In this document: one piece after another, positions 38,010 to 59,829 of the stretch
How the letters are laid out: each line of letters opens with the position of its first letter
Numbering within the stretch: position 1 is the stretch's first letter
The notes under the pieces: model-generated
Seen by the model: only the letters and a program-made list of their open reading frames with translations
Told to the model about the DNA's origin: nothing
The model's database searches: none
Made by a program: the position numbers and the translations under genes
From: an uncultured Methanobrevibacter sp.
GTDB lineage: Archaea > Methanobacteriota > Methanobacteria > Methanobacteriales > Methanobacteriaceae
Assembly: GCA_902771225.1 (NCBI GenBank)
Contig: CACXWH010000011.1
Coordinates: forward strand, 1 to 59,829
Direction of reading: 5' to 3'
Length of the DNA: 59,829 nucleotides

Positions 38010-38043
38010 AATGAAAATTAAAGGTAGATAATTAACTACCTTT
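38010..38043 (-). terminator. Hairpin at the stop of the solute-binding protein gene
   Basis: Perfect 8-bp arms aaaggtag (38020-38027) and ctaccttt (38036-38043) span the stop codon and are followed on the minus strand by T-rich DNA. Confidence 0.5.
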
Positions 38044-38973: not shown

Positions 38974-39180
38974 ATAATTTCACCTATTAAATATTTTATC
39001 AAAGCATGAATATAAATTTATAGTAAAAAATGAGATAGAAATTCAAATGAATATTCTTAGAATAAGGAACGATAATTTAAATAGAACAAGAAAAATTAGT
39101 TAATATAATCCAATGATCTTTCAATAATATCAAAGTAATGAAAAATAATTAAAAATAACTGGTTGTACATGTATCATATA

Positions 39181-39225: not shown

Positions 39226-41424
39226 TTACTCTCCTATTGTAATTGTATTTGATTTGCTTTCCTCTCCATATTTTGAAGTAATTATATATTTACCTGACGG
39301 TAAATTAATATTTAATCCAGCTTCCCCTACATCATTAGTCATACGGGAATATAATATTCCATTAATGTTAAATGAAACATTTTGATGAGGAGCAGGATTA
39401 CCCTGACCATCTAAAGTTTTTACAACAAATTTAGATCCATCATGATACTTCATGTTTAAATCTGAAGTAACTAACTTAGAAAGTACTTTAACATTATTAC
39501 TTTTACGGGCATTTTTGTAAAATGCTGTAATAATATAATCTCCAGGAGGTAAATTAATATTTAATTTTACATGGCCTGTTTCATTAGTTTGGCGAGTATA
39601 GAATACACCATTAATGTTAAATGTTACATCTACACCAGCTTTAACCCAGCCACCATCGTCAGAGTGGATACGTGCAATAAATTGAGTACCATTTTTGTAA
39701 TATTTTACTAAATCACCGGATTCAATCAAATTAAATACAGTAACATTATTAGTCCTCATTTCACCAGTGACAGGGTTTATTGCAGTTAATATATATTTTC
39801 CTTCTGGAAGGTTAATATTTAATTTAGCCCAACCTGATGCATTAGTAGTTCTAGTGTAGAATACACCATTAATATTGAAATTAACCTCAGTATTAGCTAA
39901 TGGGTTACCTTGACCATCTAGGAACAATCCATAATAATGAGTTCCATTTTTAAAGACTTTAAGTACATCTTTTGCATAGATAGTAGGGAGAATTTCAACA
40001 GTTGAATTAATGCTTTGAGGTTTAAATTCATCATTACCATCAAAGTCAACTTTAACAGTGTAATTTCTACTAATTAAGTTTAATGCAATAGAAGCTTCAC
40101 CATTTTCACTAGTTCTAGTGTAAGTTTTGCCATTAATGGTTATTTTAACTTCCAAACCACTTAACTTATTACCTTTATTATCTGTTAGATAGACAATAAA
40201 TCTCTCAGAACCACTGTAATATTTTACTACAGCAGGAGCAGTCATGATAAGATAGCGTTCTTTGACAATAGTTCCGTTAACAGTTTTTGAAGCATATTTA
40301 TCATTACCTGGATAGGTAACTTCAAAGTTATGACTACCCTCAGGCAAATCAGAGATATCAATGACAGCTTTACCATCTTTAATAGGAACAGTATATGATT
40401 TACCATCAATAGTTACTTTTACATCACCAGTAGCATCCTCAGGAACTGTAACAATAAATTTATCATCAGTATTGGATATGTCAATTGGATAATCAACTAT
40501 CTTAGGAATTTCAAAGCTGGTTGAATTGGAAGCTGAAGGATATTTATCGTCACCAGAGTAAGTAACATCAACAGTGTAATTGCCAGGTTCCAAATCGGAA
40601 ATATTTACAACAGCTTTACCATCAATAACCGGCACAGTTTGAGTTTTTCCGTTGATAGATACTGTCACATTTCCAGTAGCATCTTCAGGCAATTCAACAA
40701 CAATTTCATCGCCTTCAACTTTAATGTCCACAGGAACTTTTTCATCCACAACTTTAAATGAATCTTTTACTGTTTTTGATTCATATTTATCGTTTCCAGG
40801 GAATGTAACAACAGCATCATAAGATCCTGGTTTTAAATCAAGTGGTAACTCTATATGAGCAACACCATTAGTTACAGTTACATAATATCCGACACCACCA
40901 ATATCAACTAATACCTGACCGTTTATATCTTTAGGTAAGTTTACAGTTATATTAGTTTTTTGTCCAACATTAATGTCTTCAGCTATTACTTCGAATGGAT
41001 AATCAACGACTTTCGGAATGTCGACGATTGTTGCATTAGATACTGGAGCATATTTATCATCACCAGGATAGGTTACTTCAACACCATGTTTACCCGGTTC
41101 TAAACCGGAAATATCCACAACAGCCTTACCATCTTCAACAGGAACAGTTTGAGGCTTACCATCAATGGATACAGTCACACTACCAGTAGCATCATCAGGA
41201 ACAGTGATAACTAATTTACCGTCTTCTTCAGTTATGTCAATTGGATAATCTGAAACTTTAGGAACTTCAAAGCTGGTTGAGTTTGAAACAGGATCATAAT
41301 TGTCATCACCAGGATAAGTTACATCAACAGTATGTTGACCAGGTTCTAAACCGGAAATATCCACAACAGCCCTACCGCCTGTAACAGGAACAGTTTGAGG
41401 CTTACCGTCAATAGATACAGTCAC
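39226..41424 (-). CDS. C-terminal segment of the giant adhesin-like protein, separated by a frameshift
   Basis: This frame gives 732 residues from a GTG that overlaps the upstream stop (GTGA, 41421-41424). It has no signal peptide and starts mid-repeat (VTVSIDGKPQTVPV). It continues the Ig-like repeats of the upstream frame for about 390 residues (units such as VDVTYPGDDNYDPVSNS). It then has four C-terminal repeats of about 85 residues, with FNINGVFYTRTTN and LNINLPxGKYIITA motifs in the last three. It ends ESKSNTITIGE with no membrane helix or sorting signal. I read it as the true C-terminus of the upstream protein, detached by a frameshift. Independent translation by coupling is possible but would leave it unsecreted. 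Confidence 0.75.
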   Translation of the reverse strand: MTVSIDGKPQTVPVTGGRAVVDISGLEPGQHTVDVTYPGDDNYDPVSNSTSFEVPKVSDYPIDITEEDGKLVITVPDDATGSVTVSIDGKPQTVPVEDGKAVVDISGLEPGKHGVEVTYPGDDKYAPVSNATIVDIPKVVDYPFEVIAEDINVGQKTNITVNLPKDINGQVLVDIGGVGYYVTVTNGVAHIELPLDLKPGSYDAVVTFPGNDKYESKTVKDSFKVVDEKVPVDIKVEGDEIVVELPEDATGNVTVSINGKTQTVPVIDGKAVVNISDLEPGNYTVDVTYSGDDKYPSASNSTSFEIPKIVDYPIDISNTDDKFIVTVPEDATGDVKVTIDGKSYTVPIKDGKAVIDISDLPEGSHNFEVTYPGNDKYASKTVNGTIVKERYLIMTAPAVVKYYSGSERFIVYLTDNKGNKLSGLEVKITINGKTYTRTSENGEASIALNLISRNYTVKVDFDGNDEFKPQSINSTVEILPTIYAKDVLKVFKNGTHYYGLFLDGQGNPLANTEVNFNINGVFYTRTTNASGWAKLNINLPEGKYILTAINPVTGEMRTNNVTVFNLIESGDLVKYYKNGTQFIARIHSDDGGWVKAGVDVTFNINGVFYTRQTNETGHVKLNINLPPGDYIITAFYKNARKSNNVKVLSKLVTSDLNMKYHDGSKFVVKTLDGQGNPAPHQNVSFNINGILYSRMTNDVGEAGLNINLPSGKYIITSKYGEESKSNTITIGE

Positions 41425-42130
41425 ATTACCAGTATTGAAGTTTCTTTAGCATCAATTTCAAATGAAGTAGTATTTCTATTTGGTGCATATTTATCATCAC
41501 CAGGATATTTTACAACAACATCATATTTTCCTTTAGATAAGTCATCTAAGTGTAATTTAGCCTGACCGCCTGTTGCATTTGCATAGTATCCAACACCATT
41601 AACATCAATAAGTACAGGACCAGTTACATCTTTAGGTACACTTACAGTAATATCAACAGAAGATCCATCCACTTTAGCATTAGCAGTGATTTTATAATCA
41701 TCAACTTTTGGAATATCGACGATTGTTACATTGGATAGTGGAGCATATTTATCATCACCAGGATAGGTTACTTCAACACCATGTTTACCAGGTTCTAAAC
41801 CAGAAATATCCACAACAGCCCTACCACCTTCAACAGGAACAGTTTGAGGCTTACCATCAATAGATACAGTCACACTACCAGTAGCATCATCAGGAACACT
41901 AATGACTAATTTACCGTCTTCTTCAGTCATATTAATTGAATAATCTGAAATTTTAGGAACTTCAAAGCTGGTTGAGTTTGAAGCCGGACCATAATTGTCA
42001 TCACCAGGATAAGTTACATCAACAGTATGCTGACCAGGTTCTAAACCGGAAATATCCACAACAGCCCTACCGCCTGTAACAGGAACAGTTTGAGGCTTAC
42101 CGTCAATAGATACAGTCACATTACCAGTAG
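40740..42130 (-). repeat. 695-bp tandem duplication spanning the frameshift
   Basis: The stretch reading cttaccgtcaatagatacag occurs at 41401 and again at 42096, and both copies run on with near-identical DNA. The period is 695 bp, which is one base short of 232 codons. This explains why the reading frame changes at the junction near 41,423. Confidence 0.7.
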
Positions 42131-45100
42131 TTGTATTTCCATTAGGTGCATAGTAATCGTCACCAGGATATTTTACAACAACATTATGTTCTCCTTTAGA
42201 CAAGTCATCCAAGTGTAATTTAGCCTGACCGCCTGTTACATTAGCATAATATCCAACACCATCAACATCAATAAGTACAGGACCAGTTACATCTTTAGGT
42301 ACACTTACAGTAATATCAACAGAAGATCCATCCACTTTAGCATCGACATTGATTTTATAATCATCAACTTTTGGAACTTCAACATCATTGATTTTTGAAG
42401 CAGGAGTGAAGTATTTATCACCAGAATAAATCACTTCAACAGTGTGATTTCCTGGTTTTAAATCACCAATACCAATAGTAACCGGAATTTCAGTAATATC
42501 AGTTACATTATAGACTTTACCGTCAATGACAACAGTTACATTACCAGTAACACCATCAGGTAACACAACAGTTGCAATACCTTTTTCCACATCAATGTCA
42601 ACAGACATTTCAGTGACCGTTTTTCCTTCAACTTTTAAAGTTACAGTGTTTGAAGTGCTTCCGATGTATTTAGTATCACCAGCATATGTTGCATTAATGG
42701 TGTAGGTGCCTTCAGTCAAATCACTTAAAGTTAAACTGCCTTTACCATTTACAAGACCAACAACATGATTTTCTCCATTAACTTTAACAGTTACAGCAGT
42801 AGTAATTGATTTATCCAATTCAACACTGACAACAGCCTTATCGCCGACGATTATAGTGGTCTTATCTAATTTAATGGATAATTTAGTAGGAACTTGATTA
42901 ACAACTAACTTTTTAGTAGCAGAAGAACTGCCAGTATACTTATCATCACAGGTAAATACTGCTTTAACATTGTAAGTAGCTTTAACCAAATTAGATACAG
43001 TGTAGTTACCTTTACCATTAACAACAGCAACATCATATGATTTGCTGCCAACGATTAACTTAACAGTAGCATTAATGCCCGGATTCATTGTAACTTTAAA
43101 TATTGCATCATCGCCAACAACAATAGGAGAGTCAACACTTACATCAACAGAAGTAGATATTTTATTGACTTTTAAAGTTACAGTGTTTGAAGTGTTTCCT
43201 AGATATTTGTCGGTTTCAGCAAATGTAGCGTTAATTGTGTATGTTGCATTTGCCAAATCACTTAAAGTTAAACTGCCTTCACCATTAGTTAATGATACTG
43301 TGTATTCCTTACCATTTACTTTAACAGTTACTGTAGCGTTGATTTTTTGATTGAGTTTAATATTAACAACACTTGTTCCATCAACCCTAATCACAGCTTC
43401 ACTAAGAGTTACAGTTAAGTTGGTTGGGATTTTATTAACAGCTAAGTGTTTAACAGCTGAAGCAGATCCTGTGAAGTTCACATCACCAGCAAATGAAGCA
43501 CTTATACTATATGTTTTATTGATTAAATCACCAATATTATAGCTTCCTTTACCATTTTTGACATATACAGTGTAGTTATTATTATCAACATGCAATGTTA
43601 CAGTTCCGTTTACTTTCTGATTTAATTCCACATTAACTATTACATTGTCTCCAACGAATTTAGGAGTTGTAAATTTAACATCGATTGTAGTGGATGCTCT
43701 TGCAACTGTGAAAGTAGTACTGTTTGAACGAGCATCGTATTCCATATCACCAGGATAAGATGCAATTACTGCATGTAATCCACCAGATAAATTATTCAAT
43801 CTTAAAGTAGCAATTCCAGTTGTAGTGTTTGCTTTAACAGAGTATGGAACACCATCAACTGTAATTGTTACATTATTTTCAACATCATTAGGAACAGTTA
43901 CATTAATAATTGAATATTCACCATAAGGATGGCTTTCAACATTTATCTTGATGTCATAAACACTTGTTCCAGTTACTCTAAATTTAGTTCCGTTCTTGTC
44001 TTTAGCAGAGTATTTGCCGTCACCTTTATAAGTGACATTGACTTCATACTCACCAGGCTGTAAATTAGGAATAACTGCAGTAGCAATACCGTTTACCATA
44101 GTGTACTCATATGGAATGTCGCTGTTGTTGACTTTAATTACCAAATTAGTTGAATTAACATCACTTGGTAAAACAACTGTGACAGTAGCATTTTGACCAA
44201 AGGTAATGTTTGTAGCAGTTACATTAATTGCATAATCATCAATCTTATTGACTGTTAAAGTAGTGTAATTAGTAGCATAAGCATACTTTGTATCGCCTGC
44301 AAATGTTACAATTACATTATAAGTATTATAAGCCAATCCAGATACATTTTGTGAACCTTTACCGTTAACAACAGCAACATCATAAGTTTTATCGCCAACT
44401 TTAACTTGAACAGTAGCATTGATTGTAACATTCATGTTAACTGTAAAGACTGCATTTTCACCAACTTTAATCGGTGAACCGACAGTTACATTAATATCAG
44501 TAGATATTTTATTAACTGTGAATTCTTTTGAAGCGGATTTGACACCATTATAATTATTATCACCAGTAAATGTAGCAATAACAGTAATTGTAGAATTATC
44601 TACCGGAGTGTAGTCATAAGTAGCAACATCCTTACCATTAACATGTACAGTGTAGTTAGCACCATTAATAGTAAATATCACATCACCAGTAACGGTTTCA
44701 TTCAAGTTAGCAGTGAATTTTACAGGAGTGCCCACAACAATTCTACTAGGAACAGTAGTATCATTAACACTAATAGTCACATTATTTTTAACAACCTTAA
44801 ACGTAGCATTATCAGTAGATCCAGTGTAATTCTTATCACCAGCTAAAACAGCATTAATAATATAATCACCAGCTCCAAGACCACCAGAAATAGTAACTTT
44901 CTTACCCTCAACCTTGTACGCTTTACCATTAATAGTAACATTAATAGCACCAGTTGAATTAACAGTATTTAAAGTAATTTCAATCTTATCTCCAACTTTA
45001 TAAATTGACTCAACAGAAATTGAAATACTTGAAGTATTCTTATTAATAGTAAATTTAGCACTGGAAGTCACATTACTGTTATAATCATCAGCAGTGAAGA

Positions 45101-48100
45101 ACTCAACAGTAGCAACTTTACTACCAGCAGACAAACCAGTCAAATTAACACTAACTTTACCATTAGACACAGTTCCTTTAAAGACCCTACCATCAACAGT
45201 AACATTAACAGTACCATTAGCCTTATTACCCACATTAATAACAGCAGTAGCATTAGCCGGATAAGTCACATCAAGAATAGCCACATCAATAGCAGGAGTA
45301 ACCCTTAAAACAGTAAATTTAACATTATTTAAAGTTAATTTATTATAATTACTGTCACCATAGAAGACCACAGTAGCGACATAATTGCCTGCAAGCAATT
45401 TAGCACCATCAACTATAGTTTTAACAGTACCATTGTACAATACTTTGTCTCCAACTTTAATTGAAACATTTCCTTTAAAGTCATCAGCAACATTAATAAC
45501 AAATGAAGTATTCTGTTCAACAGTGACATTTAAACCAGTTACATCAGCAGCTAAATCAGCAGGATTGACAGTGAATGAAACAGTATCATTAATACTTGGA
45601 GCATACCTGTTATCACCAGCATAAGTCACATTTACACCATAATTATCTGCATTTAAGTCAGATACATTCAATTTACCTTCACCATCAACGACAACAACAT
45701 CATAAGTTATACCATCAACTTTAACTTTAACAGTAGCATTAATGGAAGGATTCATAGTAACTGTAATAACAGCCACACCACCATAAGTTACAGGAACCTT
45801 AACATCCACACTAACATCAGTAGGAACTCTGTTAACCACAAAGTCTTTACTAGTTGAATTACCGTTATACATATCATTGCCTGTGAATGTAGCCACAACA
45901 GTTAAAGTTTTGTTATTAACCGGAGTGTATTCACAAGTAGCAAATCTTGCATTGACAACATTTACAGTGTAGTTAGCGCCATTAATAGTAAATATCACAT
46001 CACCAGTAACGGTTTCATTCAATGTAGCGTTGAAGATGACTTTATTTCCAACATAAATTATGGAAGTAATGTCTTTTATATCAATTGTAACGTTTTGTTT
46101 TTCTATTTCGAAGGTTTCCATTGTTCTTGCACTAGTGTAATTTTTATCACCGTTGTAAATAGCCACAACATCATTTAATCCAAATGTTAAATTATTTTTC
46201 AAGGTTGCATTACCGTTGACAAGATTAATTGTGTATTCTTTGCCTCTAGTGTAGAATGTTACATTACCAGTTGTGTTTCCGCTGACAGTAGCAATCACAT
46301 CAGTACCGTTTTGGATTAATTTAATTGTAGGAACAGCCTGAGGTATATTAGGACGTATTACCTGTGATATATTTTTATAGTTTGCGTCACCATCATAAAT
46401 CACAAATCCTGAATGTGGGCCTGCAGAAAGATTATTCAATCTTAAATTAGCCGTACCGGTAGTCTTATTGATAGGAATAATATAGTCAACATTATCAATT
46501 CTTATAGTTATATTATCTCCTAAAATATCCTTAGGTATGCCTGTTACATTGATTGTTGAATATTCACCATAAGGTTTGTATTCCACATGAGTTACATCCA
46601 CTTTCCAAGATGGATTTGGATTTACAGCAAAGATTGTGTTGTTATCTTTAGGAGCATATCTTGGACCACCATTGTAAGTAACATTAACAACATGCTGACC
46701 ACCAACCAAACCAGGAACAACCAATGTTGCTACACCATTAGTAAGGTTAACAGTACCTCGGTTAACTCTATCAACATAAATTGTAACATTTCCAATAGCA
46801 TCAGTAGCAACCAATACCCTTACAGTAGCATTTTCACCATAGGTAATGTTGTCAACTTTTACATTGATTGTAAAGTCATCAGTTGGACTGACAGTGAAAT
46901 TAATATAAGTTGTGTTAGTAAGGAAATTATCATCACCACTGTAAATAACAGGAATATTTACATATTTACCCGGAGCTAAACCAGAAATATTAAATAATAC
47001 TGTTCCATTAGCCTCAATAGGAATTGTATATCTATGATTTGCAATAATAATAGCAATATAACCAGTTGCATTTTTATTAACAGTCACATTAATAATTTCA
47101 TCATGACCCCAAGTAATATTAGTAGGAGTAGCATTTACAAATGTTCCATATTTATCAATAGTAAATGTATCCCAAACTGAAACTTTAGTGTGATTATTAT
47201 CACCATTATACTCAGCCACAACAATAGATGATCCAGGAGTTAAATTATTAACCAAAGTAGCACTACCATTCACAAGAACAACAGTATAAGTTTTATCATG
47301 AATATGGAAAGTAATATTACCAGTCACATTTCCACTAACAGTAGCAACAACATCAGTACCATTCTGAGTTAAAGTAACAACAGGAGTTGCCTTAGCAATA
47401 TTAATATGAACACTTTGTGTTTTACTGGAATAGTTAGCAATACCAACATAACTTACAGTAGCATCATGCACACCAGCAGAAAGATTATTCAAAGTCAAAG
47501 TTCCCACATAATTGGTAAGATTTACAACATAAGAAATACCATCAATTACAACAGTCACATTCTTACCATCAACATGATAAGGTAAAGTTGAAATAGTAAT
47601 AACAGTATTTTCACCATAAGGCTCTTCATCAACTGTAATATTCATCATCCAATCAACATTAGGCTTAACAGTAAATATCTTATTGTTTAAATCTTTAGGA
47701 GTGTATCTTGGACCACCATTATAAGTAACATTAACAACATGCTGACCACCAGCCAAACCAGGAACAACCAATGTTGCTACACCATCAGTAAGATTTACAA
47801 TTTCTATAATTTTTCCATCAACATTAATAGTCACATTACCAACAGCATCAGTAGCAACCAATACCCTAATAGTAGCATTATCACCATAGAAAATATCATC
47901 AACAATTACACTCATAGGATAATCGCCAGTAGGATTAACAGTAAATGTAATATTAGTTGCATTTGCATTAAAGTGATTATCACCAGGGAATGTTATGGTA
48001 GCATTATAAGTTCCGGCAGGCAAGTTTTGAATATTGAAACGAGCAATTCCATCCCTAATAATTGCAACATAAACATTTTCACCAATACGTAGTGCAATAT

Positions 48101-51100
48101 AACCAGTTGCGGTTTTATTTACAGTTACATTGATTAATTCATTTTTACCATAGGTGATATTTGTATAGTTTATATTAAGAGGAGTATCTAATTTAAATAC
48201 ATTGAAGAATGAATAATTAGTTTGCTCTCCATAATATGTACCATTATAAAACCTTACTGAAATAATATGATTTCCCGGCTCTATTAATGATGTGTAATTT
48301 TCATTAGGTAATCTGTATACCAAAGAACCGTCCGGATTAAGATGTAGCGGAATGCTTACTTCCCTACCGTCTATAGTAATAATTACCCTACCGTTTTCAG
48401 TGTTCGTAGCATTGGAATTTACATTTACAATAAGTGTCTGTCCATAGAAGATATCCTGTGCATGAACTTTAATCCATATTGGACGTGAGAATAAAGCCAG
48501 TACGGTTGAATTTTGAGAAGCTTCGTGGAAAGTATCTCCTTCATAAACTGCAGTAATTGTGTATGTTCCAACTCTCATATGAGTCTTTGTGAAATTAGCA
48601 TATACAACACTCCATTTATTACCAAGACCTGAAAATATTATATCCGCATTAGGAATCACCTGATCATTGATCTTAATTACTAATTTATTAATATCAAAGG
48701 TATAATTACTTTGAACAGGTACAGATATTCTAACAGAGAAATCAATTTTTTCATCATGTTCTTTATCATAAGTTACTGTAAGTTCAGTAGGCATTTTTAC
48801 ATTAACATGGCCAAAGTAAACAGTATTCTTCTTAAGACCACTGTCCTGACCTAAAATAGTGAAGTTACCTTGATATATCATTCTTGTATTCACTAATGCA
48901 TTGTATGGCATTGGATAGTGAGGATCATCAGGGAACACATCATTCCAAGTATCTAATGTATGTACTGAAATGATTGTATTGTTATTATCATCTGTAATGT
49001 TAGCAAAGAATGTGAAAGTCTCATTCCAGGTCTCATTCCAGGTCTGATTATTAAGAATCCAAGTTGTAGTATTGGTCCATATGGTTCCGTTATTGAATAT
49101 TAAGTAATCAAAGGTATTGTTATAGAGATATAAATCACCATCATTCCATACGGCATAGTCATATTTATTGTATCTTGCATCATATGGCTTTTCCAGATAA
49201 GTAATATTCTTATTTGGATTTGACCCAGTAATATAATTATTAATTAAGTATGCAATAGCACTTTCATTAACCCATATTGCATCAGGACCATTGAATTTTG
49301 AGTTAGCAATTGTTGAATTACCAGCATATACAAATATACCACCAGCATAATCTTCAGCAGCCATATAACTTTCGAATGAAAGATTATTAAAAGTTGCATT
49401 ACCGTTTACAAAGATTCCTCCACCGTTACCGTATAATGCGTGAGTATTGCTGAAATTGGAGTTTGAAACATTAAAGTTATCAATGTTATATAAGAAAATT
49501 GCTCCACCGTTATATGATGCAGCAGAATCGAAAAAGTCACATAAATCAATTATTCCGTTAGTTGAGTTAACCCATGAAATGGAACCTCCGTTCCTTATTG
49601 TAATAGCACCCTTAAATGTTACATTATATATCTTTGAATCATTACAGTTTACAAGAGATAATGCACCGTTTGAGTGGGATTCCGTATCTATAATCTTTAA
49701 GTTTAAGAAATTAAGATTAGTGGCATTTTCCCAGTAAATTGTTCCACCGGAACCATAAACTCTATTTGATGAATCCAAATAACCTGATCCTACATTTTTA
49801 TTGAATATACAATCAATAATTAATGCATTATTAGCATTATGACCTGAAATTGCTCCACCATTTACAAATGCTGCTGAATATGAGAAGTTTGATTTCGTGA
49901 TATTTGCATTATCTCCTCCGATATAAAGTGTACCTCCTTCAGTAGCAAATGAATTTAAGAATGTTGAATTTAAAACGGTAGCATTTTCTCCAAGCCAGTA
50001 AATTGCTCCACCTTGACCTCTTCTAATATCAATAATATAATTATTATCAAAGTAGGAATTACGTACTTTACAGTTAGGACTGTCTCCCCTTACATAAATA
50101 GCTCCACCATATAAATTAGCAGTGTTATTTATGAATCTGTATTTGTTAATGTTAATTCCGTCTACACCTAACCAAGCAAGAGCAGCACCACCAATATCAG
50201 CATGGTTTTTAATGAAAGTGTTGTTTCCACCGTATCCACCGGTAGCATTAGCTTCCCTACATAAAGCACCACCATACTCACCGGCAACATTTTCTTCAAA
50301 TAAAACGTTGTTAAGACCCATCATACTAGCATTACAGTCAATAGCACCACCATTCATTGTAGCTCTATTTGCCCTAAAGTAAATGCTTTCTAAACTTGAA
50401 TTACTTGAAACACCATTTAAGTATAATGCACCACCATAATTAGCTTCATTTCCTATGAAATTAATATATTTGAAAATACCTGCAGATGCAAGCCAGTCAA
50501 TAGCACCACCATGATCTCCTGCTGTGTTATATTCAAATGAGGAGTAATAAATAGTATTATTAGTACCTGTACCTCCAGCATAAAGTGCACCACCATGACG
50601 TACTGCAGTGTTGGATTTGAATATTGTATTATTGATAGATAATGAAGATGCTTTAAATCCAATAGCACCACCATCACCATAAGCATAGTTGGAAGTGAAA
50701 TTAGAATCAAATATATGAACATCTTTGGAAAATGCACCTACATAGATTGCACCACCGGTAAATGCACCATTATTTGTAAAGATAACAGTATCAATTGTTA
50801 AGTTTTCACCTCTACAGTCAATTGCACCACCATAGTGGAAATCAGACATGTTGGTCAAGTGGTTTCCTTCAAATGTACAGTTTTCAATTATATCATTGTC
50901 ACTGCCCTCAGCAATGTATATGGCTCCACCACTGTCTCCAGCAGTGTTATCAATGAAGGTATAATCAATAATATGAATATTATCTACACCCATCCATGCA
51001 AGAGCCGCACCGGCAATTCCTGCGTGGTTGTTTTTGAATAAATTATGACTACCGTTACCGGATGTTGCGCCAATTTCCCTACATAAAGCAGCACCATACT

Positions 51101-54100
51101 CACCTGCAATATTTGAATCAAATATAAGGTTGTAAATTCCAACGTGAGTTGCATTACATTCTATAGCACCACCATTTTTGAGAGCTGTGTTTGATGTGAA
51201 ATTTGTATTTGTAATGTTGGTATTACTTGATCTTCCATCCAAGTAAATACCTCCACCATATTCAGCCAAGTTTCTGGTGAATGAGGAATTAACAATTTCT
51301 CCTTCATAAGCAATCCAATAGATACCTCCACCGTAACCGGTTGCATTGTTTCCTACAAAGATGGATTCGTGGACTTTGTTTTCAGTACCTACACCACCTA
51401 CATATAATGCACTACCGTTTATAGCAAGGTTATCATAGAATTTACCATCATCAATATGTACGCCTGAAGCGTGTAAGTTTATAGCTCCACCACGTTCATA
51501 AGCAACATTATTTCTCCACACTGAGACATTAATTATAGTGTTACCAGAATCAGCACCTACATATATTCCTCCACCTAATCTGGCGGTATTTCTCGTGAAA
51601 TTAGTGTTTTTAATTGTTGCATTAGATGCTAAAATATTCATTGCACCTCCAACAGCCAACTCTTCAGGATATGTATTCACTTCATAGTAGAATACAGTTT
51701 CTTTAGGATACATACGTGTTTTATTAATCAATGGATCTCCTTTGTCTAAGTATTGGATAGTATATGTCATTTCAGTACCGTCCCATGCAATCCAATTGAA
51801 TTGGTCATTCCATTCAATAGTCTTATTGGATACATAATTATCTACAAAGTTACAGTCAATTACTGAACAGTTATGGCTGTCTGGACTTACATAAATTGCT
51901 CCACCACTAACATCTGCAGAGTTATTTATGAAGGTATAGTTAGTAATTTTAATACCTACTGATCCCATCCATCCTAATGCAGCACCTGAAACATATGCAT
52001 GGTTATTTTTGAATGTATTATTTTCACCGGAACCACTTTTTGCATGGATTTCCCTACATAAAGCAGCACCGAACTGTGCATAATTGCCATCAAATAATGT
52101 ATTGGTTAAATACATTGAGGATGAATTACAGTCAATTGCTCCACCATTATATTTTGCATGGTTATCAGTAAATACACAATTTGTAATTACACTTTTATCT
52201 GATTTTCCACCAAAGTATATTCCACCACCGTAATCAGCACAGTTACTGGTAAACTCTGAATCAATGATATATCCTGAAGAAGCAACCCAATCAATAGCTC
52301 CACCAAGACCGTTCATGTCTTCTCCAGTACCTATAGCTTTATTTCCTTTGAAAACAGAGGAATATACATAATTAGTAGTACCACTTCCACCTACATATAA
52401 TGCACCGCCTTTAATAGCTGTATTATCATAGAAATTAGATCCGTTAACAGTAATAGAGGATGCTTCAATACTAATAGCACCACCATAATTGGCCGCATGG
52501 TTTTCACGGAATGTGGAGTTAGTAATGTTGATTTCACCAGATTCACTACCCATATAAATTGCTCCACCATCATATGCACGGTTATTGTAGAAAGTGGAAT
52601 TTACGAGTTTACCTTTATCTGAATAGGCTACAATAGCACCACCACAGCCAGTAGGATTATCCACATAATTGTCTCCAAAGACACAGTTAATTATTTCACA
52701 ATTCTTACTGCCTTCACCAACATAGATTGCTCCACCACTGAAACCTGCACTATTACCATAGAAGTAATATGTGTCAATACTAATATTTGTTGCATTTAAC
52801 CATGCAAGTGCTGCTCCAGAAGTTTCTGCAACATTATCTATGAATGTATTATTGAAACCCTTACCGCCGGTAGCATTAATTTCCCTACATAAAGCTGCAC
52901 CATAATTTGCATGATTAGATATGAATCTTGTATTGGTAAGAACCATTCCACTGGCATTACAATCAATAGCTCCACCATTGGTGAGCGCATAGTTATTTGA
53001 AAATGTTGTATTAATAATTTTAGCTCCTAATGCAGAAGAATTATAATATAATCCTCCTCCTATCTTTGCAACATTATTATCAAATAAACAATTAATTAAT
53101 GTACCGTTTTGTCCTGCCCAGTAGATACCTCCACCTATATCACCGTCACGATATCTAGGGTCACCATATGTACCGTTAGCATTACCATTAATAAATTCAA
53201 CATTAAGGAATGTAATATCATTTGAAGTGATATTGAATACTCTACAATATCCTTTTGCATCAATAACAACACCCTGACCATGAATAATCATTGGCTTATC
53301 AACATTTGTAAGATTTATACAACGGTCATCCAATGGTTCACCATTAGGACCAAATGGGGTAAATACATAAGAAGACCTTGTCTCTGTAATTAAATAAATT
53401 TCATAATGGTCTTGGCTTGCTTGATCACGCATTTGTCTTTCAATTAAAGCTTGAAGAACTTGGAAATCACCCATTAACGTACCATGTGCCTGATCAGTTA
53501 TGTTTGTTTCTTTATACATATAATTTTCATCCATAAATCCAACAGTTATATTGTAAGTTTCATTAACCTTAAGATTACGGAAAGATACGAATACTTGTTT
53601 TCTGTATGGGTTATAATGAGCAGTGAAATTTTCTTCAGTTACAATAACCTGTTGAACAAGATGACCTGTAGAATCAGTTAAATTAGCAATTAAATAGATT
53701 GATTGACTTCTGATATCCCTAGGCCTGTCTAAATAAACTGTAATAACAGGAGTCTCAATATCTGAATAATGAGTAATAGCAAATTCATAATCTTCATTTA
53801 ATTCAAATAATGATTCAGAAATGAACTTATTTGTTGTGCCCTGCATAGTAACATCAGTTCTTTTAGATGGTAAAATAACTCCTCTTCCATCAAAATTATT
53901 GTAATCCCTATATGCCAATAATCCACTATTAATAAGATATAAAACCGCACCACCATTATAGTATGCAATGTTTTTAATGAATGTACAATTTTCAATTTTA
54001 AGATTTGGATTACTTAAAGATGCATAATAATATACTGCTCCACCATCACCAGCATAGGATTTTACAAATGTAGAATCTTGAATAAAGATATTATTATAAT

Positions 54101-57100
54101 CTGCTACATAAATAGCTCCACCTCTATCGGATGCATTGTTTCCTTCAAAAATACAGTTAAGTACTTTATGATTATTGTTTCCAATATAAATTGCACCACC
54201 ATATCTGTCAGCAGTGTTGTTAGTGAAATTACAAAGGGAAATGGTATGATAGTTATTATTACTATTAAAACCTGCAGCATAAATTGCACCACCATCTAAG
54301 AAAGCATGGTTTTTGCTGAAAGATGAATGGGATATGCTAATAATCTTACCACTTACTTTTGGTGTGTAAATAGCTCCACCATAATAAGCAGTATTGCCGG
54401 TAAAATTATTATATGAAATGTCAATATTATTAGCATTACCTTTAAAGTTTGAAAATATAGCACTTCCATTGTAAGCACTATTATTGGTGAAATTGTTTTT
54501 AGAAATCGTTACAGGATTAGCATTAATATAAATGGCACCGCCGCTAGCAGAATTTAAAGCCTTATTTCCAATGAAAACATTATCGGTAATAGTACTCTTA
54601 TACGGAACATATATAGCACCACCACCTTCTGTTGCTGTGTTATTTATAAATATAATATTCTTAATTATTTTAATAGGATCGCTGTTACCACGGTTATAGA
54701 AATATAATCCACCACCTATTCTTGCAGTGTTGTTTATGAAAGTTAAATTATTATATTCTAAATAATTAGTATATAATCCACCACCAATGTTGGCTGCAAC
54801 ACCGCCAATAATTTTAGCATTATATAATTTAAGAAGAGAACTGGCAGCCCATATATTTCCACCGTTTTCTGAAGCTTCATTACCTATGAAAGTACAGTTT
54901 TCAACTATAACCCCATTTTCAGCCTTTTCAAAAATAACAAGTCCACCACCTTTATTTGCAGTGTTGTTTATGAAAGTAACATTTAATAAGTAAGCATTTT
55001 TACATTCTTTAACTTGGGCACCGCCACCACCATTATTGTTGGCTGATCCTATAGAAAGTACAGTATTGTTTATTAATGTTACATTTATCATACGGATATC
55101 CTTAGGTAAATATACATAATCGGTTTTAAGATTATTGTTGGAGAAATATATTCCGCCTGCTTCTTTAGAACAAACACTATTTTTAATTACACAATTACTT
55201 ATGGTGAAATTACCTGATCTCAATAAACAAGCTCCTCCTTGAGTCCAATCCTGATTTATATTAGTGGTATAAGCACAATTCCCATCAAAGTAACATCCAT
55301 CAAGTATTCCATTATAACTTCTATCCCATAAGATAGCTCCACCATCAGCCTTAGAGGTAGAATTAACAATATTGCCAATGAAAGTAGAATTTTTAACAAC
55401 ACCATTATATCCACCTAATGACCAGAAAATAGCTCCACCACCTTTAGTATTTAAACCAGCGAATGCATAAGCAGTATTATTTATGAAGTTACACCCTACG
55501 ACGGTGTTAAATTTAGAATTAGCTCCACCATACCACAAAATACCTCCGCCATTAGCTTCAGCAATATTGTATGTGAAGTTAGAATAATATACATTAGAAT
55601 ATGAACTGACGGAATAAATTGCACCACCACCGTAAACACTATCCTTATCAGTAGACGTACTATAAGCATGACCTCTTTCAAAGGAAGAATTGGTAACATT
55701 ACAATAATCACCAAACAAGTAAACGATTCCTCCATGATATGCCTGACCATTGGCAAATCTGGAACCTATAATACTAGCATCGTTACCGTGAATATATACT
55801 ATACCACCCAAATTACTAGCAGTATATGATGAACCTTTTGCAACAGCATTGCTTAAGTTTGAATTTTCAATAGTTGCATACTGACCTTCAATATATACTG
55901 CACCACCGGAAAGGGTTGCGTTGGACATTGATATTTCGGAATTATTAATTAGAGCATTTAAACCAAATATATAAACTGATCCGCCGGAAGTAGATACAAA
56001 ACTACGATTAGATGTAATATTATCAACAATTGCATCATTTCCGTGAATATACAAGGTACCACCTATTCTAGCGTTAGTTTGGTCGAAAGTGGAATTTGCA
56101 ATTAAAGTGTGATTACCTTGAACATATATAGCGCCTCCACCATGGTCATACTTTGCTTCATAAGTGTGTGAAACATTACATTTATTGAATGATGAATCTG
56201 TAATATTAATATAATTACCTGTAGCATAGATAGCTCCACCATCAACAGCTGCGGAAGTCATTTGGAATTTGGATTTTGTAATAACAGAATAATCACCAAT
56301 TACATTAACTGCACCACCTTTGGAATGATGTCCGTTTAAACCTACTGCATTGGTAATTGTAAAAGTACTGTTATAGATTAAACCTCTTTGACCTATCCAT
56401 AAAATTGCACCACCATCATCTCCTGCAAGGATACGAAGGAAAGTGGAATTATAAACTTTACAGTCTAAACCTTCTACAACAATTGCTCCACCTTCTCCAG
56501 CAGAATTACAGTCTGTAAATGTACAGTTGATAAAAGTAGTAAGGTCACCTATAATTTTTACTGCTCCTGCCTGATTAGGTGCATAACATCTGTCAAATTT
56601 TGAATTTGAAACTGTTGTATTTTCACCAGTAATAAATATTGCACCTGCATCAGTTTCATTAAGTTTACCTTTATTATGTAATACAGTACCTAATGTGAAC
56701 TTTGATTCAGTTATAGTAACATTATCACCAGTAAGACAAATTATTCCCCCTTTTGAAGTAGATGCTCCAGTTTCAGGATCAGCAAAAGCTACACCAGTAT
56801 TATTGTAACAGGTAATATTTTTAACATGACCTAAATTACCTTCCCAGTTTATAGCTCCACCATCGTCACCACAGGAATTGTTTGTAAATATACAATCTTC
56901 AATAGTAGCATTGAATGAATTTTCCGCGATGTTAATTGCACCGCCGTCACGACGAGCATAGTTATATATGAATTCAGACTTTTTAATTACAACATCATGA
57001 GCACCTACATCAAATGCAATTGCTCCACCATGACCAGTTAATTTATAATCAAGTTTAGTATCAGGATTATTATCATCTCTGTTTTTAGTGTAATCCTTCC

Positions 57101-59829
57101 AGGTATTGGTAGCAATACCTAATGCTTCATCACCAATGAACTTACAGGAATCAAAAGTAATATTACTGTTATCCTGCAAGAACACAGCTCCTCCACGGCC
57201 CTGTGAAGTTGTGTTGATGAAAGTTGCATTGTAAACATATTCATGGTCACCTGTAAACATGATAGCGCCGGCGTCACCACCAGTAGTATTGGTATCCCAG
57301 TGACTTGCATCCCAACCGGCATAAATAACATTATTTCTGCCGTATGTACTGTGTTTTAAAGTTCCACCATAAGATTTGGTATTGATAACAGTAATGTTTT
57401 CAATTCTACCGTAATCACCGTCGTAGTAGATTGCACCGGCTGAACGGGCAGCACGGGTATTGTTGAAAGTACAGTTTATTACTCTACCATAGTTTGCACC
57501 AGCTAACCAGTCAAGACCTCCACCATTAGTACCTGAAGTACAGTTTTCAAAGTATGAGTTTTTAAATACAATGTTGTCTGAACCTGTCATGTATGCTCCA
57601 CCACCACGACGAGCGGAGTTGGAGTCAATGAATCTACAGTTGTCCACAGTACCGTTATCTCCTGTCCAAAAGATTGTACCACCGTCACCACCAAAGTATT
57701 CATCAGTAACCCAATCAGTAGGAGAAGGACCGGTTTCTGTAGTAAATTCCAATATAGTCCATTCATCATTATCCGGATTGATTGAATACAATGTGTAACT
57801 AACCTTTTGATCACCATTATACTGAATAAGAACAAAGACCTTATTTAAACCAAAACTATCTTTATCCGGTAGGGAAGTTCCATATTTAATTTGATTGAGA
57901 TCTGTCAAATTTAAAAACAAGGTACTGATATCTGTACCTAATGCAGCATTGTTTGTAAAGTTACAATTGGTCATAGTACCGTTGGTACCGTCCCAGGAAA
58001 TTGCTCCTCCTGAACGGTATGCTGTGTTGTCATCAAATGTTGAATCTGAAATAATAGTGTCAAATGAACCTTTACCGAAACTGATTGCACCACCAAGACG
58101 TACAGCGGTGTTGTTAATGAATTGGGATTTTTTAATTACTCCCCTGTGTGCACCTACATCAAATGCGATAGCTCCACCGTAACCGGTTAACCAAGCATTT
58201 GTTCCACTTGATATATCTTTATCATCAACATATGTGTTATTTGCAGTACCTGCTGCAAAGTTGTTTATAAATTTACAGGTATCGAATGTAACATCATGAT
58301 TGTCCTGCAGGAACACTGCTCCTCCACGGCCAGATCCATTACAGTTAATGAAAGTTACATTATATAGGTATTCATGGCTACCGGTAAACATAATAGCACC
58401 AGCGTCACCACCAGTGGTATTGGTATCCCAGTGACTTGAATCCCAACCGGCATAATTAACTCTACGATCATCACTTGTTTTTAAAGCTCCACCCCATGAT
58501 TGAGTATTGATAATAGTAACATTTTCCATTCTACCATACCAACCATCGTAGTAGATTGCACCAGCAGAACGGGCAGCCCTAGTATTATTAAAGGTACAGT
58601 TTAAAATTTTACCGTGGTTTGCACCAGCTAACCAGTCTACTCCTCCACCGTTAGTACCTGAAGTACATTTTTCAAAGTAACAGTCTTTATATGTAACATT
58701 GTCACTTCCTGTCATGTATGCTCCACCACCACGACGTGCGGAGTTTGAATCAGTAAAAGTACAATTTTCTACAAGACCTATATCACCACTCCAGAGGATA
58801 GTACCACCGTCACCACCGAAGTACTGATCTATTGCCCAATCAACAGGAGAAATAATTGATTGTGAAACAAGAATACTAGTTTCATCCAACATCTTCCAGG
58901 TATATTCTGTAGTAGTACCGTTTACTACAACATAAGATTCGAACTTGAGAACATTATCATAGGTATAATTGAGCACAACTAGCTTATCTATATAATCTGA
59001 TATAGATGAATCGATAGGTAAACTGCTTTGTTGAAGGACAACTATATTACCTAAAGTCAAGGTTCCGTTTTCTCCAACAATAATTTTATCACCCATATTT
59101 ATAGTCAAGTTGTATTCCCAAGCTTCACCGGTAGCTCTGTTGTTTATGAATTTGGAGTTTTTGACTGTACCGTCTTCACCGTGCCAGAATATTGCACCAC
59201 CATTACGTTTTGCAGTGTTATTAATAAATATTGCATTTAAAACATTACCGTGTTTTGCACCTTCATTCCAATCAATAGCACCACCATTAGTGCCTGCAAC
59301 GTTATTTTCAAAATATGAATATTCGAAATGTGTATTATCTGAAGTTTCCGTGGCAGCACTTTGCAGGAATACTGCTCCACCACGTTTAGCTGCGGTGTTA
59401 TTGACAAAATTGGAATGTAAAGCATAACCGTCTGCACCAGACCATATTACAGCACCACCATCACCACCATAGGTGACATCACCACGAACACTAGTAGCAT
59501 TGGTAATACCTAATGCATGATTATCATAAAACTTGGAGAATAAAATAGTACCATTGTGACCATTCCAGAATATTGCACCACCGGACCTATTAGCGATATT
59601 ATGAATGAATGTACAATCATCTACCAAACCGTCATATGCTCCGGCATACCAGTCAAGAGCCCCACCATTAGTACCTGCATTATTATCTTTAAAGTATGAA
59701 CCAGTAATAGTAATGTTTCTGTTTCCATGTTCACATGAACCTAAATACATCGCACCACCACGACCACTAGTATTATTATTAATATTCTTTACAGCCTTAT
59801 TGCTTATGAACCTGTCATTAATTAAAGTA
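41421..59829 (-). CDS. Giant adhesin-like surface protein (main frame; 5' end beyond the window)
   Basis: The frame is open from the window's right edge to a TGA at 41421-41423, 6135 residues without its N-terminus. Order in the protein: a first right-handed beta-helix module (59,829 to about 53,950) of short units such as GGAIFWNGHNGTI and NCTFINN; a spacer of about 210 residues with LQALIERQ and INLTNVDKPMIIHGQGVVID; a second beta-helix module (about 53,230-49,250); a linker with IWTNTTTWILNNQTW; then a long array of Ig-like units (about 48,800 onward) with TVDVTYPGDD-like endings. Asn-X-Ser/Thr sites are very frequent, so heavy N-glycosylation is possible. Such proteins in Methanobrevibacter are thought to mediate attachment to other cells or host surfaces. 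The next frame (39226-41424) holds the C-terminus. Confidence 0.9.
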   Translation of the reverse strand, partial: TLINDRFISNKAVKNINNNTSGRGGAMYLGSCEHGNRNITITGSYFKDNNAGTNGGALDWYAGAYDGLVDDCTFIHNIANRSGGAIFWNGHNGTILFSKFYDNHALGITNATSVRGDVTYGGDGGAVIWSGADGYALHSNFVNNTAAKRGGAVFLQSAATETSDNTHFEYSYFENNVAGTNGGAIDWNEGAKHGNVLNAIFINNTAKRNGGAIFWHGEDGTVKNSKFINNRATGEAWEYNLTINMGDKIIVGENGTLTLGNIVVLQQSSLPIDSSISDYIDKLVVLNYTYDNVLKFESYVVVNGTTTEYTWKMLDETSILVSQSIISPVDWAIDQYFGGDGGTILWSGDIGLVENCTFTDSNSARRGGGAYMTGSDNVTYKDCYFEKCTSGTNGGGVDWLAGANHGKILNCTFNNTRAARSAGAIYYDGWYGRMENVTIINTQSWGGALKTSDDRRVNYAGWDSSHWDTNTTGGDAGAIMFTGSHEYLYNVTFINCNGSGRGGAVFLQDNHDVTFDTCKFINNFAAGTANNTYVDDKDISSGTNAWLTGYGGAIAFDVGAHRGVIKKSQFINNTAVRLGGAISFGKGSFDTIISDSTFDDNTAYRSGGAISWDGTNGTMTNCNFTNNAALGTDISTLFLNLTDLNQIKYGTSLPDKDSFGLNKVFVLIQYNGDQKVSYTLYSINPDNDEWTILEFTTETGPSPTDWVTDEYFGGDGGTIFWTGDNGTVDNCRFIDSNSARRGGGAYMTGSDNIVFKNSYFENCTSGTNGGGLDWLAGANYGRVINCTFNNTRAARSAGAIYYDGDYGRIENITVINTKSYGGTLKHSTYGRNNVIYAGWDASHWDTNTTGGDAGAIMFTGDHEYVYNATFINTTSQGRGGAVFLQDNSNITFDSCKFIGDEALGIATNTWKDYTKNRDDNNPDTKLDYKLTGHGGAIAFDVGAHDVVIKKSEFIYNYARRDGGAINIAENSFNATIEDCIFTNNSCGDDGGAINWEGNLGHVKNITCYNNTGVAFADPETGASTSKGGIICLTGDNVTITESKFTLGTVLHNKGKLNETDAGAIFITGENTTVSNSKFDRCYAPNQAGAVKIIGDLTTFINCTFTDCNSAGEGGAIVVEGLDCKVYNSTFLRILAGDDGGAILWIGQRGLIYNSTFTITNAVGLNGHHSKGGAVNVIGDYSVITKSKFQMTSAAVDGGAIYATGNYINITDSSFNKCNVSHTYEAKYDHGGGAIYVQGNHTLIANSTFDQTNARIGGTLYIHGNDAIVDNITSNRSFVSTSGGSVYIFGLNALINNSEISMSNATLSGGAVYIEGQYATIENSNLSNAVAKGSSYTASNLGGIVYIHGNDASIIGSRFANGQAYHGGIVYLFGDYCNVTNSSFERGHAYSTSTDKDSVYGGGAIYSVSSYSNVYYSNFTYNIAEANGGGILWYGGANSKFNTVVGCNFINNTAYAFAGLNTKGGGAIFWSLGGYNGVVKNSTFIGNIVNSTSKADGGAILWDRSYNGILDGCYFDGNCAYTTNINQDWTQGGACLLRSGNFTISNCVIKNSVCSKEAGGIYFSNNNLKTDYVYLPKDIRMINVTLINNTVLSIGSANNNGGGGAQVKECKNAYLLNVTFINNTANKGGGLVIFEKAENGVIVENCTFIGNEASENGGNIWAASSLLKLYNAKIIGGVAANIGGGLYTNYLEYNNLTFINNTARIGGGLYFYNRGNSDPIKIIKNIIFINNTATEGGGAIYVPYKSTITDNVFIGNKALNSASGGAIYINANPVTISKNNFTNNSAYNGSAIFSNFKGNANNIDISYNNFTGNTAYYGGAIYTPKVSGKIISISHSSFSKNHAFLDGGAIYAAGFNSNNNYHTISLCNFTNNTADRYGGAIYIGNNNHKVLNCIFEGNNASDRGGAIYVADYNNIFIQDSTFVKSYAGDGGAVYYYASLSNPNLKIENCTFIKNIAYYNGGAVLYLINSGLLAYRDYNNFDGRGVILPSKRTDVTMQGTTNKFISESLFELNEDYEFAITHYSDIETPVITVYLDRPRDIRSQSIYLIANLTDSTGHLVQQVIVTEENFTAHYNPYRKQVFVSFRNLKVNETYNITVGFMDENYMYKETNITDQAHGTLMGDFQVLQALIERQMRDQASQDHYEIYLITETRSSYVFTPFGPNGEPLDDRCINLTNVDKPMIIHGQGVVIDAKGYCRVFNITSNDITFLNVEFINGNANGTYGDPRYRDGDIGGGIYWAGQNGTLINCLFDNNVAKIGGGLYYNSSALGAKIINTTFSNNYALTNGGAIDCNASGMVLTNTRFISNHANYGAALCREINATGGKGFNNTFIDNVAETSGAALAWLNATNISIDTYYFYGNSAGFSGGAIYVGEGSKNCEIINCVFGDNYVDNPTGCGGAIVAYSDKGKLVNSTFYNNRAYDGGAIYMGSESGEINITNSTFRENHAANYGGAISIEASSITVNGSNFYDNTAIKGGALYVGGSGTTNYVYSSVFKGNKAIGTGEDMNGLGGAIDWVASSGYIIDSEFTSNCADYGGGIYFGGKSDKSVITNCVFTDNHAKYNGGAIDCNSSSMYLTNTLFDGNYAQFGAALCREIHAKSGSGENNTFKNNHAYVSGAALGWMGSVGIKITNYTFINNSADVSGGAIYVSPDSHNCSVIDCNFVDNYVSNKTIEWNDQFNWIAWDGTEMTYTIQYLDKGDPLINKTRMYPKETVFYYEVNTYPEELAVGGAMNILASNATIKNTNFTRNTARLGGGIYVGADSGNTIINVSVWRNNVAYERGGAINLHASGVHIDDGKFYDNLAINGSALYVGGVGTENKVHESIFVGNNATGYGGGIYWIAYEGEIVNSSFTRNLAEYGGGIYLDGRSSNTNITNTNFTSNTALKNGGAIECNATHVGIYNLIFDSNIAGEYGAALCREIGATSGNGSHNLFKNNHAGIAGAALAWMGVDNIHIIDYTFIDNTAGDSGGAIYIAEGSDNDIIENCTFEGNHLTNMSDFHYGGAIDCRGENLTIDTVIFTNNGAFTGGAIYVGAFSKDVHIFDSNFTSNYAYGDGGAIGFKASSLSINNTIFKSNTAVRHGGALYAGGTGTNNTIYYSSFEYNTAGDHGGAIDWLASAGIFKYINFIGNEANYGGALYLNGVSSNSSLESIYFRANRATMNGGAIDCNASMMGLNNVLFEENVAGEYGGALCREANATGGYGGNNTFIKNHADIGGAALAWLGVDGININKYRFINNTANLYGGAIYVRGDSPNCKVRNSYFDNNYIIDIRRGQGGAIYWLGENATVLNSTFLNSFATEGGTLYIGGDNANITKSNFSYSAAFVNGGAISGHNANNALIIDCIFNKNVGSGYLDSSNRVYGSGGTIYWENATNLNFLNLKIIDTESHSNGALSLVNCNDSKIYNVTFKGAITIRNGGSISWVNSTNGIIDLCDFFDSAASYNGGAIFLYNIDNFNVSNSNFSNTHALYGNGGGIFVNGNATFNNLSFESYMAAEDYAGGIFVYAGNSTIANSKFNGPDAIWVNESAIAYLINNYITGSNPNKNITYLEKPYDARYNKYDYAVWNDGDLYLYNNTFDYLIFNNGTIWTNTTTWILNNQTWNETWNETFTFFANITDDNNNTIISVHTLDTWNDVFPDDPHYPMPYNALVNTRMIYQGNFTILGQDSGLKKNTVYFGHVNVKMPTELTVTYDKEHDEKIDFSVRISVPVQSNYTFDINKLVIKINDQVIPNADIIFSGLGNKWSVVYANFTKTHMRVGTYTITAVYEGDTFHEASQNSTVLALFSRPIWIKVHAQDIFYGQTLIVNVNSNATNTENGRVIITIDGREVSIPLHLNPDGSLVYRLPNENYTSLIEPGNHIISVRFYNGTYYGEQTNYSFFNVFKLDTPLNINYTNITYGKNELINVTVNKTATGYIALRIGENVYVAIIRDGIARFNIQNLPAGTYNATITFPGDNHFNANATNITFTVNPTGDYPMSVIVDDIFYGDNATIRVLVATDAVGNVTINVDGKIIEIVNLTDGVATLVVPGLAGGQHVVNVTYNGGPRYTPKDLNNKIFTVKPNVDWMMNITVDEEPYGENTVITISTLPYHVDGKNVTVVIDGISYVVNLTNYVGTLTLNNLSAGVHDATVSYVGIANYSSKTQSVHINIAKATPVVTLTQNGTDVVATVSGNVTGNITFHIHDKTYTVVLVNGSATLVNNLTPGSSIVVAEYNGDNNHTKVSVWDTFTIDKYGTFVNATPTNITWGHDEIINVTVNKNATGYIAIIIANHRYTIPIEANGTVLFNISGLAPGKYVNIPVIYSGDDNFLTNTTYINFTVSPTDDFTINVKVDNITYGENATVRVLVATDAIGNVTIYVDRVNRGTVNLTNGVATLVVPGLVGGQHVVNVTYNGGPRYAPKDNNTIFAVNPNPSWKVDVTHVEYKPYGEYSTINVTGIPKDILGDNITIRIDNVDYIIPINKTTGTANLRLNNLSAGPHSGFVIYDGDANYKNISQVIRPNIPQAVPTIKLIQNGTDVIATVSGNTTGNVTFYTRGKEYTINLVNGNATLKNNLTFGLNDVVAIYNGDKNYTSARTMETFEIEKQNVTIDIKDITSIIYVGNKVIFNATLNETVTGDVIFTINGANYTVNVVNARFATCEYTPVNNKTLTVVATFTGNDMYNGNSTSKDFVVNRVPTDVSVDVKVPVTYGGVAVITVTMNPSINATVKVKVDGITYDVVVVDGEGKLNVSDLNADNYGVNVTYAGDNRYAPSINDTVSFTVNPADLAADVTGLNVTVEQNTSFVINVADDFKGNVSIKVGDKVLYNGTVKTIVDGAKLLAGNYVATVVFYGDSNYNKLTLNNVKFTVLRVTPAIDVAILDVTYPANATAVINVGNKANGTVNVTVDGRVFKGTVSNGKVSVNLTGLSAGSKVATVEFFTADDYNSNVTSSAKFTINKNTSSISISVESIYKVGDKIEITLNTVNSTGAINVTINGKAYKVEGKKVTISGGLGAGDYIINAVLAGDKNYTGSTDNATFKVVKNNVTISVNDTTVPSRIVVGTPVKFTANLNETVTGDVIFTINGANYTVHVNGKDVATYDYTPVDNSTITVIATFTGDNNYNGVKSASKEFTVNKISTDINVTVGSPIKVGENAVFTVNMNVTINATVQVKVGDKTYDVAVVNGKGSQNVSGLAYNTYNVIVTFAGDTKYAYATNYTTLTVNKIDDYAINVTATNITFGQNATVTVVLPSDVNSTNLVIKVNNSDIPYEYTMVNGIATAVIPNLQPGEYEVNVTYKGDGKYSAKDKNGTKFRVTGTSVYDIKINVESHPYGEYSIINVTVPNDVENNVTITVDGVPYSVKANTTTGIATLRLNNLSGGLHAVIASYPGDMEYDARSNSTTFTVARASTTIDVKFTTPKFVGDNVIVNVELNQKVNGTVTLHVDNNNYTVYVKNGKGSYNIGDLINKTYSISASFAGDVNFTGSASAVKHLAVNKIPTNLTVTLSEAVIRVDGTSVVNIKLNQKINATVTVKVNGKEYTVSLTNGEGSLTLSDLANATYTINATFAETDKYLGNTSNTVTLKVNKISTSVDVSVDSPIVVGDDAIFKVTMNPGINATVKLIVGSKSYDVAVVNGKGNYTVSNLVKATYNVKAVFTCDDKYTGSSSATKKLVVNQVPTKLSIKLDKTTIIVGDKAVVSVELDKSITTAVTVKVNGENHVVGLVNGKGSLTLSDLTEGTYTINATYAGDTKYIGSTSNTVTLKVEGKTVTEMSVDIDVEKGIATVVLPDGVTGNVTVVIDGKVYNVTDITEIPVTIGIGDLKPGNHTVEVIYSGDKYFTPASKINDVEVPKVDDYKINVDAKVDGSSVDITVSVPKDVTGPVLIDVDGVGYYANVTGGQAKLHLDDLSKGEHNVVVKYPGDDYYAPNGNTTTGNVTVSIDGKPQTVPVTGGRAVVDISGLEPGQHTVDVTYPGDDNYGPASNSTSFEVPKISDYSINMTEEDGKLVISVPDDATGSVTVSIDGKPQTVPVEGGRAVVDISGLEPGKHGVEVTYPGDDKYAPLSNVTIVDIPKVDDYKITANAKVDGSSVDITVSVPKDVTGPVLIDVNGVGYYANATGGQAKLHLDDLSKGKYDVVVKYPGDDKYAPNRNTTSFEIDAKETSILVM
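46090..48190 (-). repeat. Two copies of a 1047-bp, multi-domain Ig-like block
   Basis: The block from an ITYGKNELINVTVNK unit to a DTFTIDK/ETFEIEK end occurs twice in a row. Matching DNA (tcagtagcaaccaatacc) lies at 46801 and 47848, a period of 1047 bp or 349 codons. Each copy holds about four Ig-like domains in the same order (GQHVVNVTYNGGPRY, NLSAG, GTDVxATVSGN). Confidence 0.75.
53270..53900 (-). other. Inter-module spacer resembling the N-terminal region of another adhesin
   Basis: Between the two beta-helix modules, about 210 residues lack the GGAIY pattern. They contain an Ig-like segment (TPVITVYLDRPRDIRSQSIY), FQVLQALIERQMRDQ and ITETRSSYVFTPFG, then DKPMIIHGQGVVIDAKGYC, which leads into the second helix. 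Phrases like these usually open the beta-helix of separate adhesins. Confidence 0.55.
56810..58831 (-). repeat. 1131-bp duplication inside the first beta-helix module
   Basis: Two consecutive copies share FGGDGGTI, GGGAYMTGSDN, SARRGGG, NNTRAARSAGAIYYDG, DSSHWDTNTTGGDAGAIMF and GGAIAFDVGAH segments. The matching DNA gtgacttg lies at 57300 and 58431, a period of 1131 bp or 377 codons. Each copy also has a loop without the helix pattern that ends before FGGDGG. Confidence 0.75.

Follow-up and report, generated by a model that had tools for sequence, protein, structure and literature searches.

The window, the whole stretch of DNA analysed here (59829 bases), holds most of a minus-strand gene that probably encodes a large extracellular adhesin-like protein, a type widespread among rumen methanogens, and that is a new, frame-broken member of the known giants of Methanobrevibacter. 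Its size is real but not new, an equally large relative having been in print since 2016. The initial annotation had described a minus-strand gene with 6135 residues in one frame and 732 in the next, and both open reading frames were confirmed at the coordinates given below. At the composition of the window, ~450 stops would be expected in 6135 codons, and the coding frame has one, its own terminator, which rules out a chance frame; the other five frames of the long-frame region have 290 to 966 stops each. The window contains no N and is the entire contig C11, one of 122 contigs in a draft genome, so the start of the gene lies outside it. The second piece is out of frame, and translation of the gene as sequenced would therefore end at 41421. 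The gene has the traits of Methanobacteriales adhesin-like proteins (ALPs), being long, repetitive, and rich in Asn and Thr, and also their layout, a right-handed beta-helix followed by Ig-like big domains. The gene and its surroundings comprise the following features:

59828-41421, minus strand: long frame of the giant gene, 6135 codons, stop-free, running off the contig end
41424-39226, minus strand: second piece of the giant gene, -1 frame, 732 codons (739 stop to stop)
53874-59828, minus strand: first beta-helix (Pfam Beta_helix and Chlam_PMP; edges approximate, from motif positions), its N-terminal part outside the window and placed on contig C21 by synteny
53379-53861, minus strand: linker between helix 1 and helix 2, with an FN3/Ig-like beta-sandwich (~53475-53861) and an alpha-helix (~53379-53474)
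49149-53381, minus strand: second beta-helix (Pfam Chlam_PMP 5.8e-45 and Beta_helix 1.2e-23, both in 48200-53048; edges approximate)
48714-49151, minus strand: junction of helix 2 and the Ig stalk, inside a segment 75% identical to genome G020
41427-48713, minus strand: long-frame part of the Ig-like stalk, with 28 units counted by an HMM built from the window (Big_3_5, E 1.3e-193)
42120-42136, minus strand: in-frame joint at 42128, with 84 nt fewer than G020 just before the joint
41421-41445, minus strand: frame break with its joint at 41433; the 98 nt that come next are identical to those after joint 42128; stop at 41421
40255-41424, minus strand: Ig-like stalk in the -1 frame, ~5 units (Pfam Big_3_5, five stretches)
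39226-40254, minus strand: four C-terminal Big_1-like repeats, starting at ~40254, 39984, 39738, and 39483 (Big_1, 2.7e-15); proposed wall anchor
31460-38979, no strand assigned: 3' flanking genes, outside the gene, used as synteny context

Pfam, HMM, and linker-model results agreed with the two beta-helix modules, long Ig-like array, and distinct C-terminal repeats that had been read from the sequence at first. Beta_helix (1.2e-63) and Chlam_PMP repeats were identified in the N-terminal half, and Big_3_5 (6.7e-64) was identified in the second frame, the last 350 residues of which carry the Big_1 match, in keeping with the published description of a weakly Big_1-like C-terminal domain (M1-C type). 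By the window-built HMM, the long frame holds 28 Ig-like units and the second frame nine; the last four of these nine are the Big_1-like repeats, leaving a stalk of ~33 units in total. The Ig region also scored with other beta-sandwich families, including CE2_N and CarboxypepD_reg, scores that we read as Ig-fold cross-matches, with no catalytic domain seen. The 6135 residues of the long frame include 709 Asn, 583 Thr, and 270 N-glycosylation sequons. No tRNAs and no Rfam families at gathering score were found in the window.

The linker between the helices is conserved in relatives. An AlphaFold model of this segment (mean pLDDT 80.9, pTM 0.64) shows a sandwich followed by an alpha-helix and then the opening strands of the second beta-helix, in line with an FN3-like sandwich set between two beta-helices. 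Single FN3 domains fitted the sandwich in Foldseek searches (e.g., 5n48_B, TM 0.77 by target). The top Foldseek match to the linker was the GH28 exopolygalacturonase 2uve (E 5e-4), which we take to be an FN3 domain followed by a beta-helix; its TM score was only 0.27, and the whole linker model thus does not superpose on it. A single-sequence structure of the C-terminal repeats had a mean pLDDT of 59.5. In sequence searches, part of the Ig array (1001 residues) matched no solved structure, and the second helix matched one, chain U2 of 7w5z, described as "Transmembrane protein, putative" (E 1.6e-10).

The size had initially been judged far above that of usual adhesin-like proteins, a view that did not hold within the genus: relatives of 7,800 to 10,000 residues occur in seven of its genomes, SM9 among them. 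The giant frame of SM9 has 7805 codons from its first Met, equal to the printed length of sm9_1600 of Methanobrevibacter millerae SM9 (7805 aa), which was published in 2016 (PMC4987999). In a literature search, this genome paper was the only one found to name sm9_1600, as judged from the available text (PMC4987999). The relative in G020, nearer to the window gene than that of SM9, comes to 9980 residues once its two contigs are joined at an exact overlap of 92 nt. Stop-to-stop frames of 8264 (G029, one contig), 9036 (G044), 8647 (G039), 7811 (G001), and 9172 (G024) codons were also identified, as was a frame of at least 9216 codons in G048 that runs off the fetched contig stretch. A second giant of ~7,500 codons in G044 (C45, 90953-102367 and 102368-113491; L049 and L050) is interrupted by a single in-frame stop. 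The window's own genome has another adhesin-like frame of 3762 codons (G000:C29, 17144-28000; L056), the fetched part of which holds 38 Ig-like units. Among published sizes, adhesin-like proteins of M. smithii are reported to reach 4,691 aa (PMC11532034). Available portions of a survey of huge proteins list seven proteins of 5000 aa or more in Methanobrevibacter sp. YE315 and name Big_3_5 among the domains common in the huge proteins of euryarchaea (PMC11573180).

The start of the gene, annotated as lying beyond the window, was sought on other contigs. Contig C21 ends in an open frame with a signal peptide, recognized by eye, followed by a beta-helix, and is tied to the window by synteny only. 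In SM9, the giant frame is flanked 3' by homologs of the window genes at 31460-38979 and 5' by homologs of two genes from C21, with 84% and 52% protein identity. The giant frame of G020 is likewise preceded by several C21 genes in a row and followed by the flank seen in the window. Two NMT1/THI5-like substrate-binding-protein frames (37313-37732 and 38032-38973, minus strand) adjoin the giant gene in the window. The first has 139 codons and looks decayed, since G020 has two full-length copies there (318 and 345 codons). By synteny, C21 would be the contig that carries the missing gene start with its signal peptide. The last 338 matched bases of C21 are 88% identical to the gene start in the window, and a search for exact overlaps between C21 and the window end, at lengths of 10 to 999 nt, found none; the join of C21 to C11 is accordingly one proposed from synteny. 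The likeness of the two ends could reflect neighboring repeats, strain variants, or paralogs. Joined from the Met on C21, the protein would have 510 + 6135 + 732 = 7377 residues, or ~113 fewer if both contig ends are the same stretch, giving an overall length of roughly 7,300.

We searched for the linker in related genomes using alignment A2. Among the matches listed, full-length matches with E below 1e-70 occurred in 20 of 67 genomes of the genus and near-full matches in two more (1.1e-45 and 1.9e-41). In the rest of the family, 71 genomes of other genera had no full-length match among those listed, the best covering linker positions 147-272 only (4.5e-26). Shorter matches, present in most genomes, are the starts of other beta-helices. 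A pattern-based scan of GTDB species genomes, which may leave out records near the window's genome, found 17 loci, all titled Methanobrevibacter; the source is named in six titles, each a ruminant gut site. The syntenic locus has no giant frame in G009 (C1, 170237-173038; L079) or G035 (C39, 10001-30000; L084), with a 933-codon frame at that place in G009, and the giant has therefore been gained or lost between species.

Comparison of the window gene with its relatives points to mosaicism. The window linker is 45% identical to the linkers of SM9 and G020 and falls outside the group that holds them (support 99/98) in a tree of 17 rows, 8 of whose 14 inner branches have support under 80; its head is thus not of the same lineage as that of sm9_1600. 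The C-terminal piece is 76.5% identical to G020, and the helix-stalk junction is 75% identical to G020 and 38% to SM9. The window gene is accordingly a mosaic relative to its syntenic counterparts, its linker being distant but its C-terminal piece and junction close to G020. Within that supported group, which has seven members, close heads end differently. The giants of G001 and G029 end in TGNP, a hydrophobic stretch, and RRFKK; the G039 giant has a KYKYSATY-type end; and those of SM9 and G020 end in Big_1-like repeats. The ends of the G048, G019, G058, and G027 giants run off contigs or the fetched stretch; for G046, the end was assigned to contig C140 solely by its position, since no exact overlap reached 15 nt. 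A TGNP-type end was found in 38 of 67 genomes of the genus, including one match in the window's genome, and two anchor types therefore appear to coexist in one organism. That match (G000:C87, 2675-2773) is the only TGNP and hydrophobic-stretch end in this genome. Stalk length varies between species by unit counts from the window-built HMM. Heads, stalk lengths, and anchors have apparently been exchanged between giants. We give an even chance to the broader reading, drawn from sequence comparison, in which the giants form a modular family of up to 9980 residues within one Methanobrevibacter genus, with close heads on three C-terminal ends and unequal stalks, a head that can be replaced at a fixed locus, and recombination that changes reach, anchor, and target.

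The break at 41433 sets the window gene apart from the uninterrupted frame of sm9_1600 and could be taken for the boundary of two genes. Two open frames do exist as sequenced, and the second could start at GTG 41424; however, the opening of this frame falls within an Ig unit, and in SM9 and G020 the Ig array runs on through the region without interruption. A second independent gene was rejected on these grounds and is highly improbable. The finished SM9 genome, with a single 7805-codon frame at the same locus, likewise argues for one gene and against a split into several ordinary ones. Programmed frameshifting was also rejected, as no slippery heptamer was seen by eye at the break, and so was the idea that a further copy of this junction in the genome explains the break, matches on other contigs being short and 65 to 80% identical. 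The break instead appears to be a deletion at a repeat edge, either real or an assembly error. Compared with G020, a single gap of 52 nt, derived from aligned coordinates and not a multiple of three, occurs near 41433, where the frame is intact in both SM9 and G020. The assembly is a draft, and since this loss and the one at 42128 both abut the edge of one 98-nt repeat, a misassembly is suggested, and we consider an assembly error slightly better than an even bet. That the break is genuine in this lineage, an out-of-frame deletion before 41433 that yields a defective or shed product without the C-terminal 732 residues, has a nearly even chance. The contig was sequenced that way, a natural frameshift has been reported in an adhesin-like gene of M. 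smithii KB11, and an in-frame stop interrupts a giant frame of G044; the shared repeat at both joints and the intact frames of SM9 and G020 speak against it. This possibility concerns the state of the present copy, not the family. As sequenced, the break would remove the proposed C-terminal anchor.

The best explanation overall is that the gene, at the sm9_1600 locus, likely encodes a giant adhesin-like protein with a proposed wall anchor. The signal peptide would send the chain out of the cell, and the four C-terminal Big_1-like repeats would hold the protein in the pseudomurein wall, making the C terminus the putative anchored end. The ~33 Ig-like units would form a long stalk, and both beta-helices would sit outermost, N-terminal to it, where they may touch glycans or proteins of partner cells such as hydrogen-producing bacteria or protozoa. 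Secretion, the anchored end, binding, and the partner of the window protein are what we infer. Presentation of the helix beyond the wall by an Ig stalk would agree with published models of such proteins. The available text on M. ruminantium M1 describes an M1-C domain in 44 proteins, with weak Big_1 similarity and a proposed role in wall attachment (PMC2812497). The last 150 residues of the window protein had at least 148 matches in the same genome, often several per gene, among the best 150 of 268 candidates. Surface and vesicle enrichment has been published for other proteins of the adhesin-like class, as far as the available sources go. The protein could instead serve as a passive coat on the cell surface that shields it from phage or from rumen enzymes or proteins. 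Its Asn/Thr-rich composition with 270 sequons, a stalk length that varies between species, and the many such proteins in the genome would fit a coat; however, described adhesins are laid out with beta-helix heads on Ig stalks, and a protein of the related class, Mru_1499, is reported in the available text to bind partners. We therefore regard a coat as unlikely and prefer the adhesin-like protein.

In rumen methanogens, adhesin-like proteins make up a notable share of the genome, and vaccines directed at them have been proposed to curb methane emission. The largest of them share a fixed layout; their real lengths are masked in draft assemblies, whose contigs end within them, and heads and anchors appear mixed between species. 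If the modular reading is true, recombination would be a way to change reach, anchor, and target. The window giant is ordinary for its genus, and what merits further attention is that heads, stalk lengths, and anchors have apparently been exchanged.

Among known systems, sm9_1600 occupies the same locus as the window gene on both sides (3' flank on C11, 5' flank on C21) and shares its domain order, a double beta-helix, then the Ig stalk, then the Big_1-like tail, with 41.6% identity over most of the long frame and 61.5% over the C-terminal piece. It differs in its intact frame and in its linker, which is 45% identical and belongs to a supported group without that of the window. The double-helix family is not described in the available portions of the huge-protein survey (PMC11573180). 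The M1-C domain of M. ruminantium M1 and the C-terminal repeats of the window are both Big_1-like, a likeness by description that does not prove domain identity (PMC2812497, available text). Chlamydial polymorphic membrane protein autotransporters have PMP repeats in common with the window gene, whereas their C-terminal autotransporter barrel was not found, with no autotransporter family among the Pfam matches to the window frames at E up to 0.001. The adhesin-like proteins of M. smithii and Methanosphaera stadtmanae, as described in the available text, resemble the window gene in having an N-terminally placed right-handed beta-helix, after which come Ig-like "archaeal big domains", and in being repetitive and rich in Asn and Thr, but those of M. 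smithii reach at most 4,691 aa, compared with ~7,300 to 10,000 for the window gene and its counterparts (PMC11532034).
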